From Curtobacterium sp. MCPF17_052 (GTDB lineage Bacteria; Actinomycetota; Actinomycetes; Actinomycetales; Microbacteriaceae): DNA of 64,000 nt. This document shows, piece by piece, positions 23,001 through 52,093 of the stretch (position 1 is the first letter of the stretch; every line of letters begins with the position of its first letter). The position numbers and the translations under genes are program-made. The notes beneath the pieces are model-generated. The model saw nothing but the letters and a program-made list of their open reading frames with translations, did no database searches and was not told the origin of the DNA. The stretch spans positions 1 to 64,000 of the forward strand of contig NZ_QKSD01000014.1 of assembly GCF_003234085.1 (NCBI RefSeq), given 5' to 3'.

Positions 23001-23659
23001 CCGGTCCGGTGCTCAGCGCGGGCGATCTGGGGCGCGACCACGAGACGGCAGCGGGAACGGTCCGCGCGCTCGGCAGGGTCGACCTCACTGCCGACCGCGG
23101 TGAACTCGTCGTCGTTCGCGGAGCGTCCGGATCCGGGAAGACCACGTTGCTCCGCCTACTCGGCGGCCTCGACGTCCCGACCCGTGGCAGGGTCCTCGTC
23201 GACGGCGTCCCGCTCGGTGAGCGCGACGAGGTCGGGCTCCGCGCGCTCCGTCGTGACCGGATCGCGTTCGTCTTCCAGGACTTCGCCCTGTTGCCGGTGC
23301 TCACCGCCGCCGAGAACGTCGAGATGCCGCTGCGCATCCGCCGGGTCTCACCCCGTCGCCGCGATGCCGCCGTCGTCGATGCGCTCCGGAAGGTCGGGCT
23401 GACGGGGCACGAGGCCCAGTTCCCCGACGAGCTCTCGGGCGGCCAGCAGCAGCGGGTCGCGATCGCCCGGGCGGTGGTCGGCGGCGCGGCCCTGCTGCTC
23501 GCGGACGAACCGACCGCGCAGCTCGACAGTGCGACAGCCGCGGGCATTGTCGATGTCGTGGCGGACCTCGTCGACCGCACCGGGCTCGCCGTGGTCGTCA
23601 CCACGTCCGACGACGCCTTCCTCGATCACGCAACCCGCGTCGTTGAACTGGAGCGGTGA
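22997..23659 (+). CDS. ABC transporter ATPase (canonical)
   Basis: 220-residue MacB/LolD-type ATPase with all motifs canonical: Walker A GASGSGKTT, Q-loop FVFQDFALLP, signature ELSGGQQQRVAIARA and Walker B ALLLADEPTAQLD. The usual switch His is replaced in VVVTTSDDAF (Ser-Asp in the place of His-Asp), which complements the degenerate signature of its partner. The start GTG 22997 overlaps the upstream stop (GTGA). It is the last gene of the operon; a hairpin follows immediately. Confidence 0.88.
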   Translation: MTGPVLSAGDLGRDHETAAGTVRALGRVDLTADRGELVVVRGASGSGKTTLLRLLGGLDVPTRGRVLVDGVPLGERDEVGLRALRRDRIAFVFQDFALLPVLTAAENVEMPLRIRRVSPRRRDAAVVDALRKVGLTGHEAQFPDELSGGQQQRVAIARAVVGGAALLLADEPTAQLDSATAAGIVDVVADLVDRTGLAVVVTTSDDAFLDHATRVVELER

Positions 23660-46473: not shown

Positions 46474-46638
46474 ATGATCAAGCAGTGCGTAAGCACCTTC
46501 GACCGGTGGCGATGTGAGCGGGAAGTCGATCACGTCGGCGACCATGAGCAGATCATCGGCCACGAGCGCACCAGATGGAATGAGAACGCGGCGGGCAAGC
46601 AGCTGCGCGATCTGCGGTCACAGCGGTCCGCCCAATAG
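46474..46638 (+). CDS. Small Cys/His protein (54 aa), zinc-ribbon-like
   Basis: 54-residue protein beginning MIKQCVSTFDRWRCEREVDHVGDHEQ. The pattern Cys-x8-Cys-x5-His-x3-His resembles the short zinc-binding CxnC...GHxxxH proteins that are common in actinobacterial and phage accessory DNA. No strong ribosome-binding site is visible. It lies in the decayed island and its role is unknown. Confidence 0.45.
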   Translation: MIKQCVSTFDRWRCEREVDHVGDHEQIIGHERTRWNENAAGKQLRDLRSQRSAQ

Positions 46639-47491
46639 CGGATCGTCTACCGGCACACCGAATTGAGGCGCATCGACGCCGAGGAGTCACTTGGCGAGCT
46701 GCGCTGGCCGTAGACGGTCCACGAGGAAGACTGCCACCACCCCGAGCATGATGATCGCGCCTTTTCAATCGACAGCACCGGGCACCGGGCACCAGGCACC
46801 AGGCACCAGGCACCAGGCACCAGGCACCGGGCACCGGGCACCGGGCACCGGGCACCGGGAGGAAGACTTCCCATCCGCTCATAGGAGACGGACTGAAGCT
46901 TCCAACGACCTGCACCGATGGTGCTACAGGATGCGGTACCTGACCTGACGCAGTTCTCGAAGTCGGCTTGCTGGGAGGCCCCCGGCCCTCGCGACTGCGC
47001 TGATGGGCGACCCAACGTGCAATGGATGCCTCGATCGGGTCGGATGAGCGTCGACGAGGAGGACGCTGTTCCGTTTCCCAGAAGAGTTGGTGGGCATCCA
47101 ACCAGGACTTCCACACTGCGTCCCTCGGGTCCCATGTGAACCCCGGCAGGATTTCGAGTCGCGCCCGCTGGTACTCGGTCATGCCCGCACGCGTCGACGG
47201 TCGGCGCTGGTAGGCGAGTCGGTCGACGAGGCGCTGCTCTTCGGTTCGCGGGCGTGGACGAGCAGCGCTCGCGGACGGTAGCCGGCCAGTCGCCGCCGTG
47301 AAGGCGTCGAGGTCGTGCACCGTCGTCACCCATCGCTGGACGGAGGCCGTGGGTATCGGGTCCTCACCGACGTCTGCGAGGTAGTAGTCGAGGCTGCGGC
47401 GCTGATCGGGGGTGAGCTGGTTGGCCGGCATGGTCGCGATCGCTGCCCATCGGTCGCGCAGGCGAACAAATCGGGGGTTCGGGGTCGACAC
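46553..47491 (-). CDS. Helicase-associated-domain protein with frameshifted C-terminus
   Basis: The open frame encodes 312 residues. The first ~180 carry two helicase-associated (HA) repeats, DNA-binding three-helix units usually attached to phage or plasmid helicases: RLAYQRRPSTRAGMTEYQRARLEILPGFTW and ARWVAHQRSREGRG. After REGRG the frame turns into low-complexity sequence running through a heptamer repeat. A frameshift at the C-run 46979-46983 restores LPASRLRELRQVRYRIL and a stop at 46924, matching the first HA repeat. The native gene is therefore about 47491 to 46924, and the long form is an artefact of frame loss, or of a sequencing error. AAGGA precedes the GTG start. Confidence 0.6.
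   Translation of the reverse strand: MSTPNPRFVRLRDRWAAIATMPANQLTPDQRRSLDYYLADVGEDPIPTASVQRWVTTVHDLDAFTAATGRLPSASAARPRPRTEEQRLVDRLAYQRRPSTRAGMTEYQRARLEILPGFTWDPRDAVWKSWLDAHQLFWETEQRPPRRRSSDPIEASIARWVAHQRSREGRGPPSKPTSRTASGQVPHPVAPSVQVVGSFSPSPMSGWEVFLPVPGARCPVPGAWCLVPGAWCLVPGARCCRLKRRDHHARGGGSLPRGPSTASAARQVTPRRRCASIRCAGRRSAIGRTAVTADRAAACPPRSHSIWCARGR
46776..46859. repeat. Heptanucleotide tandem repeat, 12 copies
   Basis: Twelve exact head-to-tail units of CACCGGG or CACCAGG: two CACCGGG, five CACCAGG, then five CACCGGG. 84 bp is a multiple of three, so in the extended minus-strand frame it encodes a repeated VPGARCP/VPGAWCL-like peptide. Block-wise unit order suggests recent slippage expansion. 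Confidence 0.95.
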
Positions 47492-47658
47492 GGCGGTCCT
47501 TTCCGAGCCCGCGGGTCGGCCTCGAAAGCGCTATGCGCGGACGGGTGCTCGATCCGGTAGGCGCGCTGATCCAGACCCACTTGGAGCCAAGAACAGGACG
47601 ACTTTGGACGGGCGGATCACTACGGTTCTGACGTCCACCGTCTGAAAGGCCGACTCCT

Positions 47659-48507
47659 GTGTCCTACCCAGAACGCACATCCGCGACGTACACGCCGCTG
47701 CTCGCACTGCCTTGGTGGGACACGGTAGGGCCCTTCCTCACACCGCTCGTGGAAGACGCAGCCGACCATCTCGACCTCGACCCGCGTTTGCTCTACCCAG
47801 TGGTCACCCCGTTCGTTCTCTGGTGCTGGCAGGACCGGGGGCTCGACCTCGAGCCTGGTCAGGTCTTCCGGCAAGCCGTGATCGAACAGTTCGTTGCCAC
47901 AGGGATGCCCGACTACGCGCGAGGAAGCCGCAACACCTTCCGAGGACGTCTTCTCCGGGTCGCGAACGTCGTGGGGACGGCTTCTCAGCGTGACCTCCGG
48001 CCCATCGGCAGATCGGCGCCGACGACGCCGTACTCGACCGCCGACATCGCTCGCTTGTGGTCCTGGTCAACTTCACAGAACACGCCCGCGCGTCAGACAG
48101 ATGCGCGGGTGCTCCTCGCATTGGGGCTCGGGTGCGGTCTCGCTGCTCGAGAGGTACTCAACCTCCGCGTGCGCGACATCAGCCCTGACGGCTCGTTGGT
48201 CACCGTTCCTTCAGGGCGCCAGCGCACCGTCAGCGTCGATGGCCTCTGGCGCGCTCCGCTTGCTGATCGCGTCGTAGCGGCGGGCAGGGACGAGTGGGCC
48301 TTCAGGCGTCGCCGCAACTCCGTGGACGTCGGTCAGATCACCGATTTCGTGCAACGACATCGAACCGCCGAGGACATTCGTGTTGTGCGGATGCGCGCCA
48401 CCTGGCTGGCGGGGAGGATCCGCGCGGGCCAACCGACCACAGACCTCTTGCGTGAGGCTGGCCTCACCCGGTTCGCCGCGCTAGATCGGTACCGAAGCAG
48501 TCCCTGA
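47659..48507 (+). CDS. Tyrosine-recombinase-fold protein, degenerate active site
   Basis: 282-residue protein with an N-terminal core-binding-like half (about 20-115) and a C-terminal catalytic-like half (about 125-280). The box I region, normally TGLRxxEL, reads GCGLAAREVLNLRVRDI: the catalytic Arg is replaced. Box II-like VVRMRATWLAGRIRAG keeps Arg246 but lacks the HxLRH His residues, and Tyr278 (LDRYRS) stands where the nucleophile should be. It is homologous to the next protein (PYS.ADI..LWSW / LLALGLGCGL). It may bind DNA without cleaving, or cleave with altered chemistry. The GTG start at 47659 follows AAAGG. Confidence 0.65.
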   Translation: MSYPERTSATYTPLLALPWWDTVGPFLTPLVEDAADHLDLDPRLLYPVVTPFVLWCWQDRGLDLEPGQVFRQAVIEQFVATGMPDYARGSRNTFRGRLLRVANVVGTASQRDLRPIGRSAPTTPYSTADIARLWSWSTSQNTPARQTDARVLLALGLGCGLAAREVLNLRVRDISPDGSLVTVPSGRQRTVSVDGLWRAPLADRVVAAGRDEWAFRRRRNSVDVGQITDFVQRHRTAEDIRVVRMRATWLAGRIRAGQPTTDLLREAGLTRFAALDRYRSSP

Positions 48508-48644
48508 CCTGGGCAAAGCCCCCCAGCTCACAGGTGGGTTGGGGCTCGCGGTATAGGGCGCTCGTGATCAAGAACACGAACCGCCCGTCAGGGGCTCGGC
48601 TCAGCCCGCGAGAACCCCAGCCGCGGGAGCAGATGGAGCCCCCG

Positions 48645-49556
48645 ATGGCCGACCGCATCGACCAACGAATCCAGAAATTTCAACCACAGGTCAACAGGCA
48701 CGTGTACGAAGTGATCCGCAACGACGTCATCGCCCTTGCTCGTGCGTCAGAGCCGCGGTCGATCTCTGACGCGCGGCGCGCGATGACGATGCTGAACGGC
48801 TTCGTGTCGTCCGTCTACACGAACGTCGGCGGCGACCTGACCGCCGACGCTCTCCTTCGTCCCTCCGTGATCATCCGCTACCTCAACACCGACACGCTCC
48901 ACATACGCTACGTGTCCCGCTTCGACATCGCCCGGTTCCTCGGGACGCTCACCGAACGGCTCACCGGTCGTCAGGTGATGCGGCTTGCCCCGCCGCCGAG
49001 CACCCGCTCGAAGCCGTACACGAACGCAGAACTCGGGAAGCTCGTTTCCTGGGCGGGCAGCATGAACAGTGAGCTGCAGGCTCGCAACGCCTGGGCTCTT
49101 CTCGCGCTCGGCGCAGGTTGTGGCCTGACGGCAGCGGAGATCGCATCTTGCCGGCGGTCCGATGTCGAATTGATCGACGGCATCTGGTGGGTGAACGTCT
49201 CCGGTGAACGCGCTCGTCGGGTTCCCGCCCGTCGACAGTGGGCATCCGCTCTCGAACTTGCATGCGATCACTCCGAGGAATACCTCTTCCACGGGTACCG
49301 CCTCGACGAGTACCCGCCGCGAATGATCCAGTCGTTCGTTTCAGACCATCCCGCCGAGGTACGCCTGAGCCCCCTGCGGCTGCGCTCTGGCTGGATCGTC
49401 GGTCTGATCGACAATGGCGTTCCGCCCACCTACATCGCTGCCCTCGCCGGGCTGGCGAACGTCTCGTCACTTAACGACTACTTCGCCTTCGCCGCGCCGA
49501 GCGCGCTCACCGATCATCTGCAGGCCATCGTCGGCGGCCGCGAGGTGACGCGATGA
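48645..49556 (+). CDS. Tyrosine-recombinase-fold protein, degenerate, paralog of the previous gene
   Basis: 303-residue paralog. PYTNAELGKLVSWAGS (about 125-140) and ALLALGAGCGLTAAEIASCRRSD (about 151-173) match the box I area, with Thr in place of the Arg. RLRSGWIVGLIDNGVPPTYIAALAGLANVSSLNDYFAF (about 245-282) matches the box II/III area with Arg247 and Tyr279 but no HxLRH. The ATG at 48645 has GGAG six bases upstream; longer frames start at GTG 48534 or ATG 48633. Its end overlaps the DDE gene as ATGA. A GC-rich structured gap of 137 bp separates it from the first recombinase-like gene. Confidence 0.65.
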   Translation: MADRIDQRIQKFQPQVNRHVYEVIRNDVIALARASEPRSISDARRAMTMLNGFVSSVYTNVGGDLTADALLRPSVIIRYLNTDTLHIRYVSRFDIARFLGTLTERLTGRQVMRLAPPPSTRSKPYTNAELGKLVSWAGSMNSELQARNAWALLALGAGCGLTAAEIASCRRSDVELIDGIWWVNVSGERARRVPARRQWASALELACDHSEEYLFHGYRLDEYPPRMIQSFVSDHPAEVRLSPLRLRSGWIVGLIDNGVPPTYIAALAGLANVSSLNDYFAFAAPSALTDHLQAIVGGREVTR

Positions 49557-51652
49557 TCACGAACGGCACTCCCCCGGTCGGTGACCTCCTAGAACGCTCG
49601 ACCCCGGACAACGAAACCGGTGCACCCTCCGCCCGCATGCTCGCTGACCGGAAGCAGACACTCGCCTCGGCCGATCCGTCCGACGAGCTCTACGCGGACG
49701 CGTTCGAGATGCTCGGCAAGATGCTGGACGCGCGTGGTCTCGACATCCAGCAGGACGAGGTCGAGGACTCCGTCGCAGCCGCCCGCCGGTACTCGTTCAA
49801 CGACGTCAAGCGCATGCGCGGCCGCCTGCTCGCCTCCCGCGCGGACCTCCTGCTCGACGGTTTCGACTCGGAGGAACGTCGACCCGGAGCAGGTGGTCGA
49901 CCGGCCACCATCAATCGACTTGCCCTGCTGACCGGGCTGTGCATGCTCGCGCTGGACAACCGTCCCCTGTGGATGCGCCAACTCGGCTCCTTTTTCAAGA
50001 ACCAGATCGACGACGACGCGCGGGAACTCCTCGGGCTTCCCGACCCGAACAGCAAGCCGAGCCTGCAGAGCAAGCGGAACTGGGAACAGAACTGCCGCAA
50101 CGCGTTCCAGCGCATGCTCGGTCTGATGGACCCCTACCCGTACAGCCGCTACGAGAACCGTCCGTACTCGGAGCACGCCCAAGAGCGCGCCGAGCACGAA
50201 GCTCACCACCTCGAGCGTGAGAAGAAGATGTACGAGCGTCTGGGCGACTTCGCGGACTTGCTCGTCAACATGACCTTCCACATGCAGCCTCGACGGCTCC
50301 GTCGAGCATCCGCACGTGAGAAGGTCAACGTCTCCTTTGACCAGACATTCATGTCGTCTCCGCTCAGCCGCACCGTCACCGCGTCACGGCTTCCGGCGAA
50401 GATCCAGGAGCAGCGTGCGCTCGAAGCCGCCGGTCGGCCGAAAGCCGGAATTGTCGACTCCTGGTCGGGCTACTACGTCCGAGAGACCGAGGACCGTCAG
50501 GATGGCGCGCCCGGCACCGCTCCGGCGTACGGAAGCGGAAGACCCACGACCAAGGTCGGTTGGCAGGCATCGATCGCCATGCGCGTTGACGATGGGATCG
50601 GCCTCGGGCGACACCCGAAGTTGATCCTCGCGACTGCGCTCAGCATGCCGAACGTGGGCGTTGCAGAAACCGCAGCGGACCTGCTCATCCGTATTGCGGA
50701 CAATGGCCACCGGCCCGGTCTCGCTGCCGCTGACAAGGAGTACTGGGCGAACGCCATCCCGTCGCGCCTGCAGATCCCGGCGACGGCACGAGGCTGGCTG
50801 CCCAGCACTGATTACAGGATTGATCGTCTAGGCAAGTGGGGCGACGGACATCGCGGCGCCATCTTCGTCGAGGGCAAGGCAATGTGCCCGGCTACTCCAA
50901 AGTCGATCATCGACGCCACGAAGGATCGCATGCAGGGACGTATCGATGACGTGACGTACCACAAGCGACGCGGCAACCGTCGGTACTTCGAACTGCGCCC
51001 GAAAGCGAAGCCGGATGCTCGCGGAAACGTGAACATGATGTGCCCGGCCGCAGGCAAGAGTCCGACCGTCATCTGCCCGCTCCGCGAGATGCTCAAGACA
51101 GCCTCGAACAGCAAAGACCGGTGGGAGATCGAGGACGACGACCCCAACCTGCCCGACCGGGCGCTGATGGACGACATCTGCAAGCAGCACTCCGTCCAGT
51201 TCACCCCTGAGGACATGCCCCCGGCGTTCCAGGGGCTCGCCTACCGGTCACCGGAATGGCACGACTTCCACAGTCACGCCCGCAATTCGATTGAATCGCT
51301 GAACGGCAGCTTGAAGGGCACGCACCACGGCAACCTCGACGACCACGACCGTCGCAGGGTCCGCGGCTTCGCTGCTGCGTACGTCTTCCTCGTGATCATG
51401 GTGGTCGCGTTCAACATGAGACGCATCGCCGACTTCCTCGAGGCAGAAGCAGAAGAGTCCCGGCGAGAGAACCCGCAGGCGCCACCCGTTCAGCGTGCCC
51501 GAGACCGCAAGTACGCCAACCCCTACACCGCGACCCTTCCCGGTGGAGCTCCTGACGAAGTCGAACTCGCCAGACGCAGGGAGAAGAAAGCTGAAGGTGC
51601 TCGGCGAAAAGCTGAGCTCAGGGCAACGTCGCGCACGCCGCTTCGAACCTGA
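49553..51652 (+). CDS. DDE-transposase-like protein (699 aa)
   Basis: 699-residue protein with an RNase-H-like DDE pattern in the correct order. First Asp263 is in VNVSFDQTFMSSP, second Asp394 in LAAADKEYWANAIPSRL (like the ADKGY motif of IS transposases), and Glu581 in HARNSIESLNGSLKG (the R..IE..NG.LK motif). The 187-residue span between the last two holds an insertion with three Cys (445, 497, 508), possibly zinc-binding. The N-terminal 250 residues are helical and charged, probably DNA-binding; the C-terminus is highly basic. It is coupled to the recombinase-like gene by ATGA. I know of no named family with this three-gene arrangement. Confidence 0.6.
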   Translation: MITNGTPPVGDLLERSTPDNETGAPSARMLADRKQTLASADPSDELYADAFEMLGKMLDARGLDIQQDEVEDSVAAARRYSFNDVKRMRGRLLASRADLLLDGFDSEERRPGAGGRPATINRLALLTGLCMLALDNRPLWMRQLGSFFKNQIDDDARELLGLPDPNSKPSLQSKRNWEQNCRNAFQRMLGLMDPYPYSRYENRPYSEHAQERAEHEAHHLEREKKMYERLGDFADLLVNMTFHMQPRRLRRASAREKVNVSFDQTFMSSPLSRTVTASRLPAKIQEQRALEAAGRPKAGIVDSWSGYYVRETEDRQDGAPGTAPAYGSGRPTTKVGWQASIAMRVDDGIGLGRHPKLILATALSMPNVGVAETAADLLIRIADNGHRPGLAAADKEYWANAIPSRLQIPATARGWLPSTDYRIDRLGKWGDGHRGAIFVEGKAMCPATPKSIIDATKDRMQGRIDDVTYHKRRGNRRYFELRPKAKPDARGNVNMMCPAAGKSPTVICPLREMLKTASNSKDRWEIEDDDPNLPDRALMDDICKQHSVQFTPEDMPPAFQGLAYRSPEWHDFHSHARNSIESLNGSLKGTHHGNLDDHDRRRVRGFAAAYVFLVIMVVAFNMRRIADFLEAEAEESRRENPQAPPVQRARDRKYANPYTATLPGGAPDEVELARRREKKAEGARRKAELRATSRTPLRT

Positions 51653-51937
51653 TCCCGAACGAACGCGTCGCCACGGTCCGCGACTTCAGCACCCTCAGCC
51701 GCGCTTCCACCGAACCCCAAACCTCCAAGCGGTCTGTCCGACCCCTACTGCGCTCCGGTTGCGACATCTGCCGCAGCGCTGCCGGCCCTGAGTACCCCGG
51801 CTCGCGCTGATCCCGTCTTTTCGGGGTGCTCCGGCGCGCCCGGAAACGGCTGACGACGAGCTGGACGGGCGCAGAACGTTCTCAACGACGCAATGATCGT
51901 GTTGCGCCAGCCGGATCGATCCGCTGCCGCGCAAGAA
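51653..51937 (+). other. Tail region of the candidate mobile element
   Basis: No gene is supported. Frames of 60-70 codons remain open after the DDE stop, but none has a start with a ribosome-binding site. It holds the right copy of the imperfect direct repeat (51852-51882) and is followed by the terminator. Confidence 0.4.
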
Positions 51938-51978
51938 GAAGGCCCTTCCCGGAGACATTCGGGAAGGGCCTTCTTTTT
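51938..51978 (+). terminator. Strong intrinsic terminator at the end of the three-gene element
   Basis: GAAGGCCCTTCCCG (51938-51951) pairs perfectly with CGGGAAGGGCCTTC (51960-51973) around an 8-nt loop, followed by TTTTT (51974-51978). It is the best Rho-independent terminator in the window. Confidence 0.9.
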
Positions 51979-52019
51979 GCCGTCGAGTTCTTAACACACT
52001 AACTACGACGGCCCTTCGG

Positions 52020-52093
<74 letters not shown>

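Follow-up and report, generated by a model that had tools for sequence, protein, structure and literature searches.

The closest described system to the one treated here is Tn6022, a DDE transposon with TnsA, TnsB, TnsC and TniQ in which the comM target is selected by TnsF, a 498-amino-acid (aa) protein with N-terminal zinc fingers and an inactivated tyrosine-recombinase domain, whose removal impairs insertion (PMC10293859). In the SE/GInt elements, Tfp/GinC has a tyrosine-recombinase fold without the RHRY residues, and these elements use the IntA and IntB recombinases, not a DDE enzyme (PMC10214605). The Dada DDE transposons, found in animals and a protist, are specific for transfer RNA (tRNA) genes, with the tRNA differing by lineage, but are eukaryotic and insert within these genes, close to the anticodon or the A box, and the available part of the report mentions no recombinase-fold partner (PMC8869645); a further report concerns a different DDE-carrying conjugative element (PMC7478629). 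Here we describe a three-gene module, A-B-C, in a stretch of 64,000 nucleotides from Curtobacterium sp. MCPF17_052 (contig NZ_QKSD01000014.1, positions 1 to 64,000; hereafter the window), in which genes for two tyrosine-recombinase-fold proteins with lost catalytic residues precede a gene for a DDE transposase (Table 1). We think it probable that A-B-C serves as the mobility module of a DDE transposon that is large, carries cargo and is inserted at the 3' ends of tRNA genes, the dead A and B most likely serving as tRNA readers for C.

What A-B-C would share with Tn6022 is that a protein with a dead tyrosine-recombinase domain selects the target for a DDE transposon (PMC10293859). The differences are that A and B are two proteins of ~280–330 aa that share the dead fold with TnsF and not its zinc fingers (no Pfam zinc-finger match in the 282- and 303-aa window proteins), that the DDE enzyme is of another type, and that the targets are tRNA genes; none of TnsA, TnsB, TnsC and TniQ was named among the ten G044 and ten C. 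breve element proteins run on Pfam, a partial set of the open reading frames (ORFs). Tn7 directed by TnsD inserts in one orientation and at a set distance from glmS, a gene that is conserved, essential and left intact, with a 5-bp duplication and a multi-protein core; A-B-C resembles it in orientation and in fixed-distance insertion by an intact conserved gene, but duplicates 6 bp and uses tRNA genes. RIT elements and Tn554 have catalytically complete, active tyrosine recombinases and, to our knowledge, no DDE enzyme; A-B-C has similarly adjacent recombinase-fold genes in an operon, but their catalytic sets are incomplete and a DDE enzyme is present. We found no description of the A-B-C family in the open-licence PMC literature, where the closest report is PMC10293859, and the family is seemingly undescribed.

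Table 1. Features of the A-B-C module and its right-hand boundary in the window.
Feature	Position	Strand	Remarks
D, accessory protein with helicase-associated (HA) domain	46553..47491	-	divergent from A
A, first tyrosine-recombinase-fold protein	47659..48507	+	282 aa; catalytic residues lost
B, second tyrosine-recombinase-fold protein	48645..49556	+	303 aa; Tyr and one Arg kept; Phage_integrase 2e-7
C, DDE transposase (predicted)	49553..51652	+	699 aa; D263/D394/E581; R577-x3-E581-x6-K588; four conserved Cys between second Asp and Glu
Hairpin with T run, probable operon terminator	51928..51982	+	51925-51985: -45.7 kcal/mol, z -9.5
Transposon right end	51987..52014		two ~10-bp motif copies (outer degenerate in window), terminal GGCCC; inverted repeat, reading inward, GGGCCGTCGTAGTTAGT
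Target duplication TTCGGT, tRNA side	52015..52020		left copy not found within window
tRNA-Pro(GGG) gene, the target	52018..52093	-	3' end faces element

The three ORFs lie where an earlier note on this DNA had placed them, and the ATGA overlap of B and C that it described is present at 49553–49556; its feature end at 51978 falls inside the terminator, and the element itself ends at 52014, a position set by homologous elements with both ends known. The tRNA gene at 52018–52093 does not figure in that note. The G+C content of the window is lower between ~24 kb and 52 kb, and the low-GC stretch stops at the tRNA-Pro(GGG) gene. Among the genome contigs scanned, 29 loci have relatives of C, 28 in Microbacteriaceae and one in an unplaced actinomycetote. 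In all 18 loci with a near full-length C (L001–L016, L019 and L021), A and then B precede it on the same strand, although the contig end truncates A in L011, and B in L014 and C in L016 are split; the remaining 11 loci have a truncated or broken C, with neither A nor B detected. The family is confirmed as real rather than a chance grouping, and this synteny and the element ends described below show that the three genes do travel together, one of the two points on which the earlier note had let its proposal depend. Matches occur in 38 of 66 genomes of the window's genus (remnants and the window's own counted) and, in a sample of the phylum, in 17 of 396 genomes and 13 of 237 genera (again including the window's own). 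Arrangements vary: in the Ser and Leu target types A lies ~0.1–2.1 kb upstream of the B-containing ORF, and on Streptomyces plasmids all three copies examined have one recombinase-fold gene and C.

Conservation and the predicted fold both mark C as an enzyme of the DDE type. Asp263 and Asp394 are present in 23 of 23 relatives, and Glu581 and Arg577 in all 20 relatives long enough to cover them, which bears out the earlier reading of these acidic residues as DDE-like motifs. The predicted structure has an RNase H fold with D, D and E in order, the other point on which the earlier note had let its proposal depend, and Tn5 is the best fold match, heading a list from which the absence of other families is no test. 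The IS4/Tn5 signature is Y-x2-R-x3-E-x6-K; C carries the R-x3-E-x6-K part (R577, E581, K588), and the window copy has another residue in place of the Tyr. C resembles IS4-family and Tn5 transposases in fold and in this spacing, but differs from them in having no Pfam match, a large Cys-bearing insertion, the partners A and B, a strict target and elements of 10–48 kb.

A and B are paralogues, with 28% identity across 247 aa (E 4e-21), as the earlier note had claimed for the proteins at 47659 and 48645. B is above the Pfam cut-off for Phage_integrase, A has no significant Pfam family, and both match an integrase family in PHROGs; a PADLOC search gave no match for A, B or C. The catalytic set of active tyrosine recombinases is R, K, H, R, H/W and Y. 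Among 45 aligned proteins (38 A-type and 7 B-type), the first catalytic Arg, the His of HxxR and the box III His are missing from every one, the second Arg (R246) is kept in every one, and the Tyr is kept in 9 A-type and all 7 B-type proteins. The earlier view that the pair had lost the catalytic Arg and His while keeping the Tyr stands for the Arg and His of this alignment, but is tempered by a wider set of 81 recombinase-fold rows, 19 of which have Arg at the first position, mostly B proteins of Cryobacterium and allies. Arg, Arg and Tyr occur together in 9 of these 81.

In genome G001, insertion beside another island of known border exposes the left end of an element: the left junction reads TTTTC-TGTGGC-GGGTCATTTGCAGGTCT and the right AGACCTGCAATCAACCC-TGTGGC-GGTACC. 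Of 31 regions assembled for an end test, two without a tRNA anchor were left out, and the other 29 were searched for an exact repeat of the 6 bp next to the tRNA, the 17 bp at that repeat then being compared with the inverted right end. Nine regions have an exact 6-bp duplication with an inverted repeat matching at 12–17 of 17 positions: G044 (17/17, 32.6 kb), G058 (16/17, 34.9 kb), G024 (16/17, 14.9 kb), the first C. breve element (16/17, 31.0 kb), G006 (15/17, 15.9 kb), G001 (14/17, 27.4 kb), G060 (14/17, 48.4 kb), the second C. breve element (14/17, 22.7 kb) and G009 (12/17, 9.8 kb). A score of 12 was reached in none of 1136 shuffled-duplication and none of 580 shuffled-repeat trials; the remaining 20 regions score 6–9, inside the control range, and three of these 20 were accepted by eye: G051 and G003 (both 9/17 ungapped, with the usual left-end form), and G016 (repeat off by one base). 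Two recombinase-fold genes and C are present in 9 of the 12 delimited elements; C is split in G006 and in the first C. breve element, and only pieces of C are left in G003 and G009.

The duplications vary by site (TTCGGT, TTTGGT, AAATGT, TGTGGC and CGTGGC), as expected for a copied target. The left flank of the G044 element is closely like the tRNA-Pro neighbourhood of species without an A-B-C end there (e.g. L071 and L081), comparison sites that may hold other islands. By eye, the right end has two copies of the end motif and the left end one, and the second copy at the right end has a palindromic core. In G058 and C. breve an element directly abuts an older neighbour at that neighbour's right end; target immunity is therefore not strict. 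A border proposed from homology blocks proved to be no element end. The 14.9-kb element of G024 (L199–L200) has both ends and the duplication TTTGGT, with A, B and C not found in it, and is perhaps a non-autonomous copy.

A tRNA gene lies on the opposite strand within 800 bp beyond C, with its 3' end toward C, in 56 of 80 loci, and on the same strand in none. The 80 (of 81 loci) are those with the end of C visible and at least 400 bp beyond it; the duplicates L035, L036, L225, L226 and L228 and the locus L047, whose downstream sequence is missing, were left out, and the near-identical L060–L063 and a C23 locus of the window's genome, listed twice (L031 and L223, both without a tRNA), were kept. 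There are 12 target types: Pro(GGG) at 24 loci, Ser(CGA) at 9, Leu(CAG) at 6, Gln(TTG) at 5, Met, Leu(GAG), Ser(GGA) and Tyr at 2 each, and Pro(CGG), Thr, Leu(TAA) and Gly at 1 each. Target type tracks the C tree, with 11 changes against a shuffled-label mean of 25.1 and none of 200 shuffles as low (60 rows, 44 labelled); within the Pro clade, Met, Thr and Pro(CGG) are used by single loci. By tRNA numbering, as we apply it, the duplication begins at the base after the acceptor stem, and so the tRNA gene stays whole. A 12-bp tRNA match at window position 23392 lies inside an ABC-transporter ORF and was judged chance.

The conserved module, its predicted folds, the ends, the duplication, the tRNA targeting and the prevailing orientation are established by the sequence analysis, whereas cut-and-paste chemistry and a division of labour between A and B are what we infer. 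C, as a Tn5/IS4-like DDE enzyme, would cut at the ~17-bp terminal inverted repeats and join the ends to the target with a 6-bp stagger from the base after the acceptor stem, leaving the tRNA gene whole; each element would insert beside one particular tRNA gene, at its 3' end and in most cases with C toward it. The dead A and B would recognize the tRNA gene and bring C there, and A or B may also hold the asymmetric right end through the second motif copy. Target recognition is the role we favor for A and B because of the known analogue, TnsF of Tn6022; tRNA genes are also a favored target of active integrases. Assigning either A or B individually to target or to ends is not supported by the present data. 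The proposal of the earlier note is supported: exact 6-bp duplications together with inverted repeats show a DDE transposon with a recombinase-fold pair and tRNA-specific insertion. The end- or target-recognition role that the note gave the pair stays conjectural.

Several observations weigh against this interpretation. The match of C to Tn5 by Foldseek alone is only E 7e-3, and C has no Pfam transposase match and nothing significant in NCBIfam or PHROG. The left end was not found in 17 of the 29 regions (spans of 19–80 kb) by exact or by-eye criteria, and these include the window, where exact duplications, one-mismatch duplications and the end consensus on both strands were searched. No tRNA lies within 800 bp in 24 of the 80 loci; part of these are displaced elements, with 44 bp of tRNA retained in L001 and ~40 bp in L012, and L020 is followed by the next element. 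The orientation is not universal, as C points away from a tRNA-Ser ~3 kb off in L038, L046 and L055 (the layout in these three is a recombinase-fold gene and C, then a convergent A-like gene). Some B proteins with Arg, Arg and Tyr may retain residual activity. Finally, the target role of A and B is argued from analogy, and divergence of B after a target switch is at most slightly above the prediction from C: the residuals are weak for B (-5.6 in L019, Thr; -2.9 in L006, Met; +1.9 in L004, Pro(CGG); same-target controls -4.2 to +2.7), and those for A (-4.6, +0.2 and -1.4, respectively) are inside a wide control range of -16.3 to +7.2.

The strongest competing explanation, which we regard as rather unlikely, is that C picks the target and that A and B are architectural subunits that bind the ends or bend DNA for the transpososome. 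The palindromic core of the second right-end motif copy would be a plausible recombinase-fold site, and the target type also tracks the tree of C itself; but the known analogue TnsF selects the target, and right ends remain similar by eye when the target shifts to Met or Thr tRNA, so that end binding need not follow the target. It is distinctly improbable that A and B act outside the transpososome as the element's transcription regulators, like the recombinase-fold phage repressors MrpR/YopR and SroF, as B overlaps C in the window and A-B stands before C in 18 of 18 near full-length loci, an inseparability unexpected of regulators. TnpS and TnpT resolve cointegrates in Tn4651-type transposons, and a similar role for A and B as active site-specific recombinases is suggested by the like layout, two recombinase-fold genes beside a DDE gene, and by the nine rows with Arg, Arg and Tyr. 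We give this very little credence, since the complete set (R, H/K/Y/R, R, H/W/K, Y) occurs in none of 84 rows, with fragments counted and Lys left out of the tally, and neither at the HxxR nor at the box III position does His figure in the list of the 12 most frequent residues compiled from the 81 rows. Least credible, and largely refuted, is that these are ordinary tyrosine-integrase islands with A-B-C a mere passenger near the attachment site: other islands do share these tRNA genes, leaving 27–44 bp tRNA copies, and the C. breve array has a canonical integrase close by, but it sits just outside the left end of the first element, an element with a 6-bp duplication and repeats of its own. When 10 genomes were searched for Phage_integrase, the sole matches inside six delimited elements (G001, G058, G044, G060 and the two of C. 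breve) were the B proteins of G044 and C. breve, none of these elements containing a canonical integrase, and the duplications are 6 bp, not 27–44 bp.

These delimited A-B-C elements lack both marks of integrase islands, a canonical integrase inside and long direct repeats of the tRNA. A first idea, that tRNA copies of 37–44 bp were the attachment repeats of the module, was rejected; the copies mark other islands, which in G046 and C. breve have displaced older elements, and L022 holds a 37-bp copy beside the module. Other islands are present at tRNA-Pro or tRNA-Ser genes in L141 (G046; with a canonical integrase), L144, L145, L148, L149, L151, L152 and L157, and displacement of A-B-C elements has left layered sites at some of these genes.

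In the window copy A, B and C are open, the outer right-end motif is degenerate, and D runs into a 7-bp tandem repeat, with twelve GCACCGG copies at 46775–46859 within the 3' part of its ORF; D may be damaged. With no matching left end, the degenerate motif and the D gene running into the repeat, this copy may be immobilized. The HA domain (PF03457) is weak in the window D (1.7e-4, below cut-off) and above cut-off in the L001 and L008 relatives; a D-related ORF lies upstream in 20 of 32 regions, or 18 separate loci once L140 and L142 are counted with L001 and L002, which they repeat, and the Pro type has such a divergent HA-domain gene upstream. The window's own genome has another C-like gene, highly divergent, that is preceded by a recombinase-fold gene and has no tRNA within 1.4 kb (G000:C23:35422-36636; L031, L223), a third recombinase-fold gene lies upstream of A-B-C in Salinibacterium (L003:2422-3558), and the two-gene module of one Streptomyces plasmid (L034) is a few kb from type I-E CRISPR-Cas genes.

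Genes for anti-phage defence occur in the cargo: the G044 element (L129–L130) codes for Hachiman HamA and HamB, for AbiTii and for a PifA-like protein, and that of C. breve (L161) for a SIR2 protein and a PD-Lambda-4-like protein. G044 also codes for a protein with HTH_38 and an rve integrase core, which we take to be IS30-like, and a KAP NTPase is present among the scanned element proteins. A block of about five genes recurs in the same order in 6 of the 12 elements, of three target types (G001, G016, G044, G051, G058 and G060; in G044 at L130:162-2155 and L129:17713-19846), and the four of its proteins given to Pfam and PADLOC yielded only a weak VbhA antitoxin-domain match.

A broader proposal, held tentatively and to our minds nearly as likely to be right as wrong, is that A-B-C represents an independent, phylum-wide superfamily in which a domesticated pair of dead integrases is a swappable tRNA reader for a single DDE enzyme without an AAA+ regulator; it would be a second answer to the Tn7 problem, evolved separately, in which an integrase gave up its catalysis but retained its preference for tRNA genes, and lineages move among at least 12 tRNA types by a change of reader. 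As the machinery is seemingly three proteins with many natural tRNA specificities, the recruitment and re-aiming of a target reader are directly testable, and compact site-specific insertion tools might follow. The A-B-C elements add a DDE system that homes to tRNA genes harmlessly, beside dead tyrosine recombinases, and identify vehicles of defence genes in Actinomycetota. They would account for tRNA-associated islands without a working integrase, and tRNA islands need not be integrase islands.

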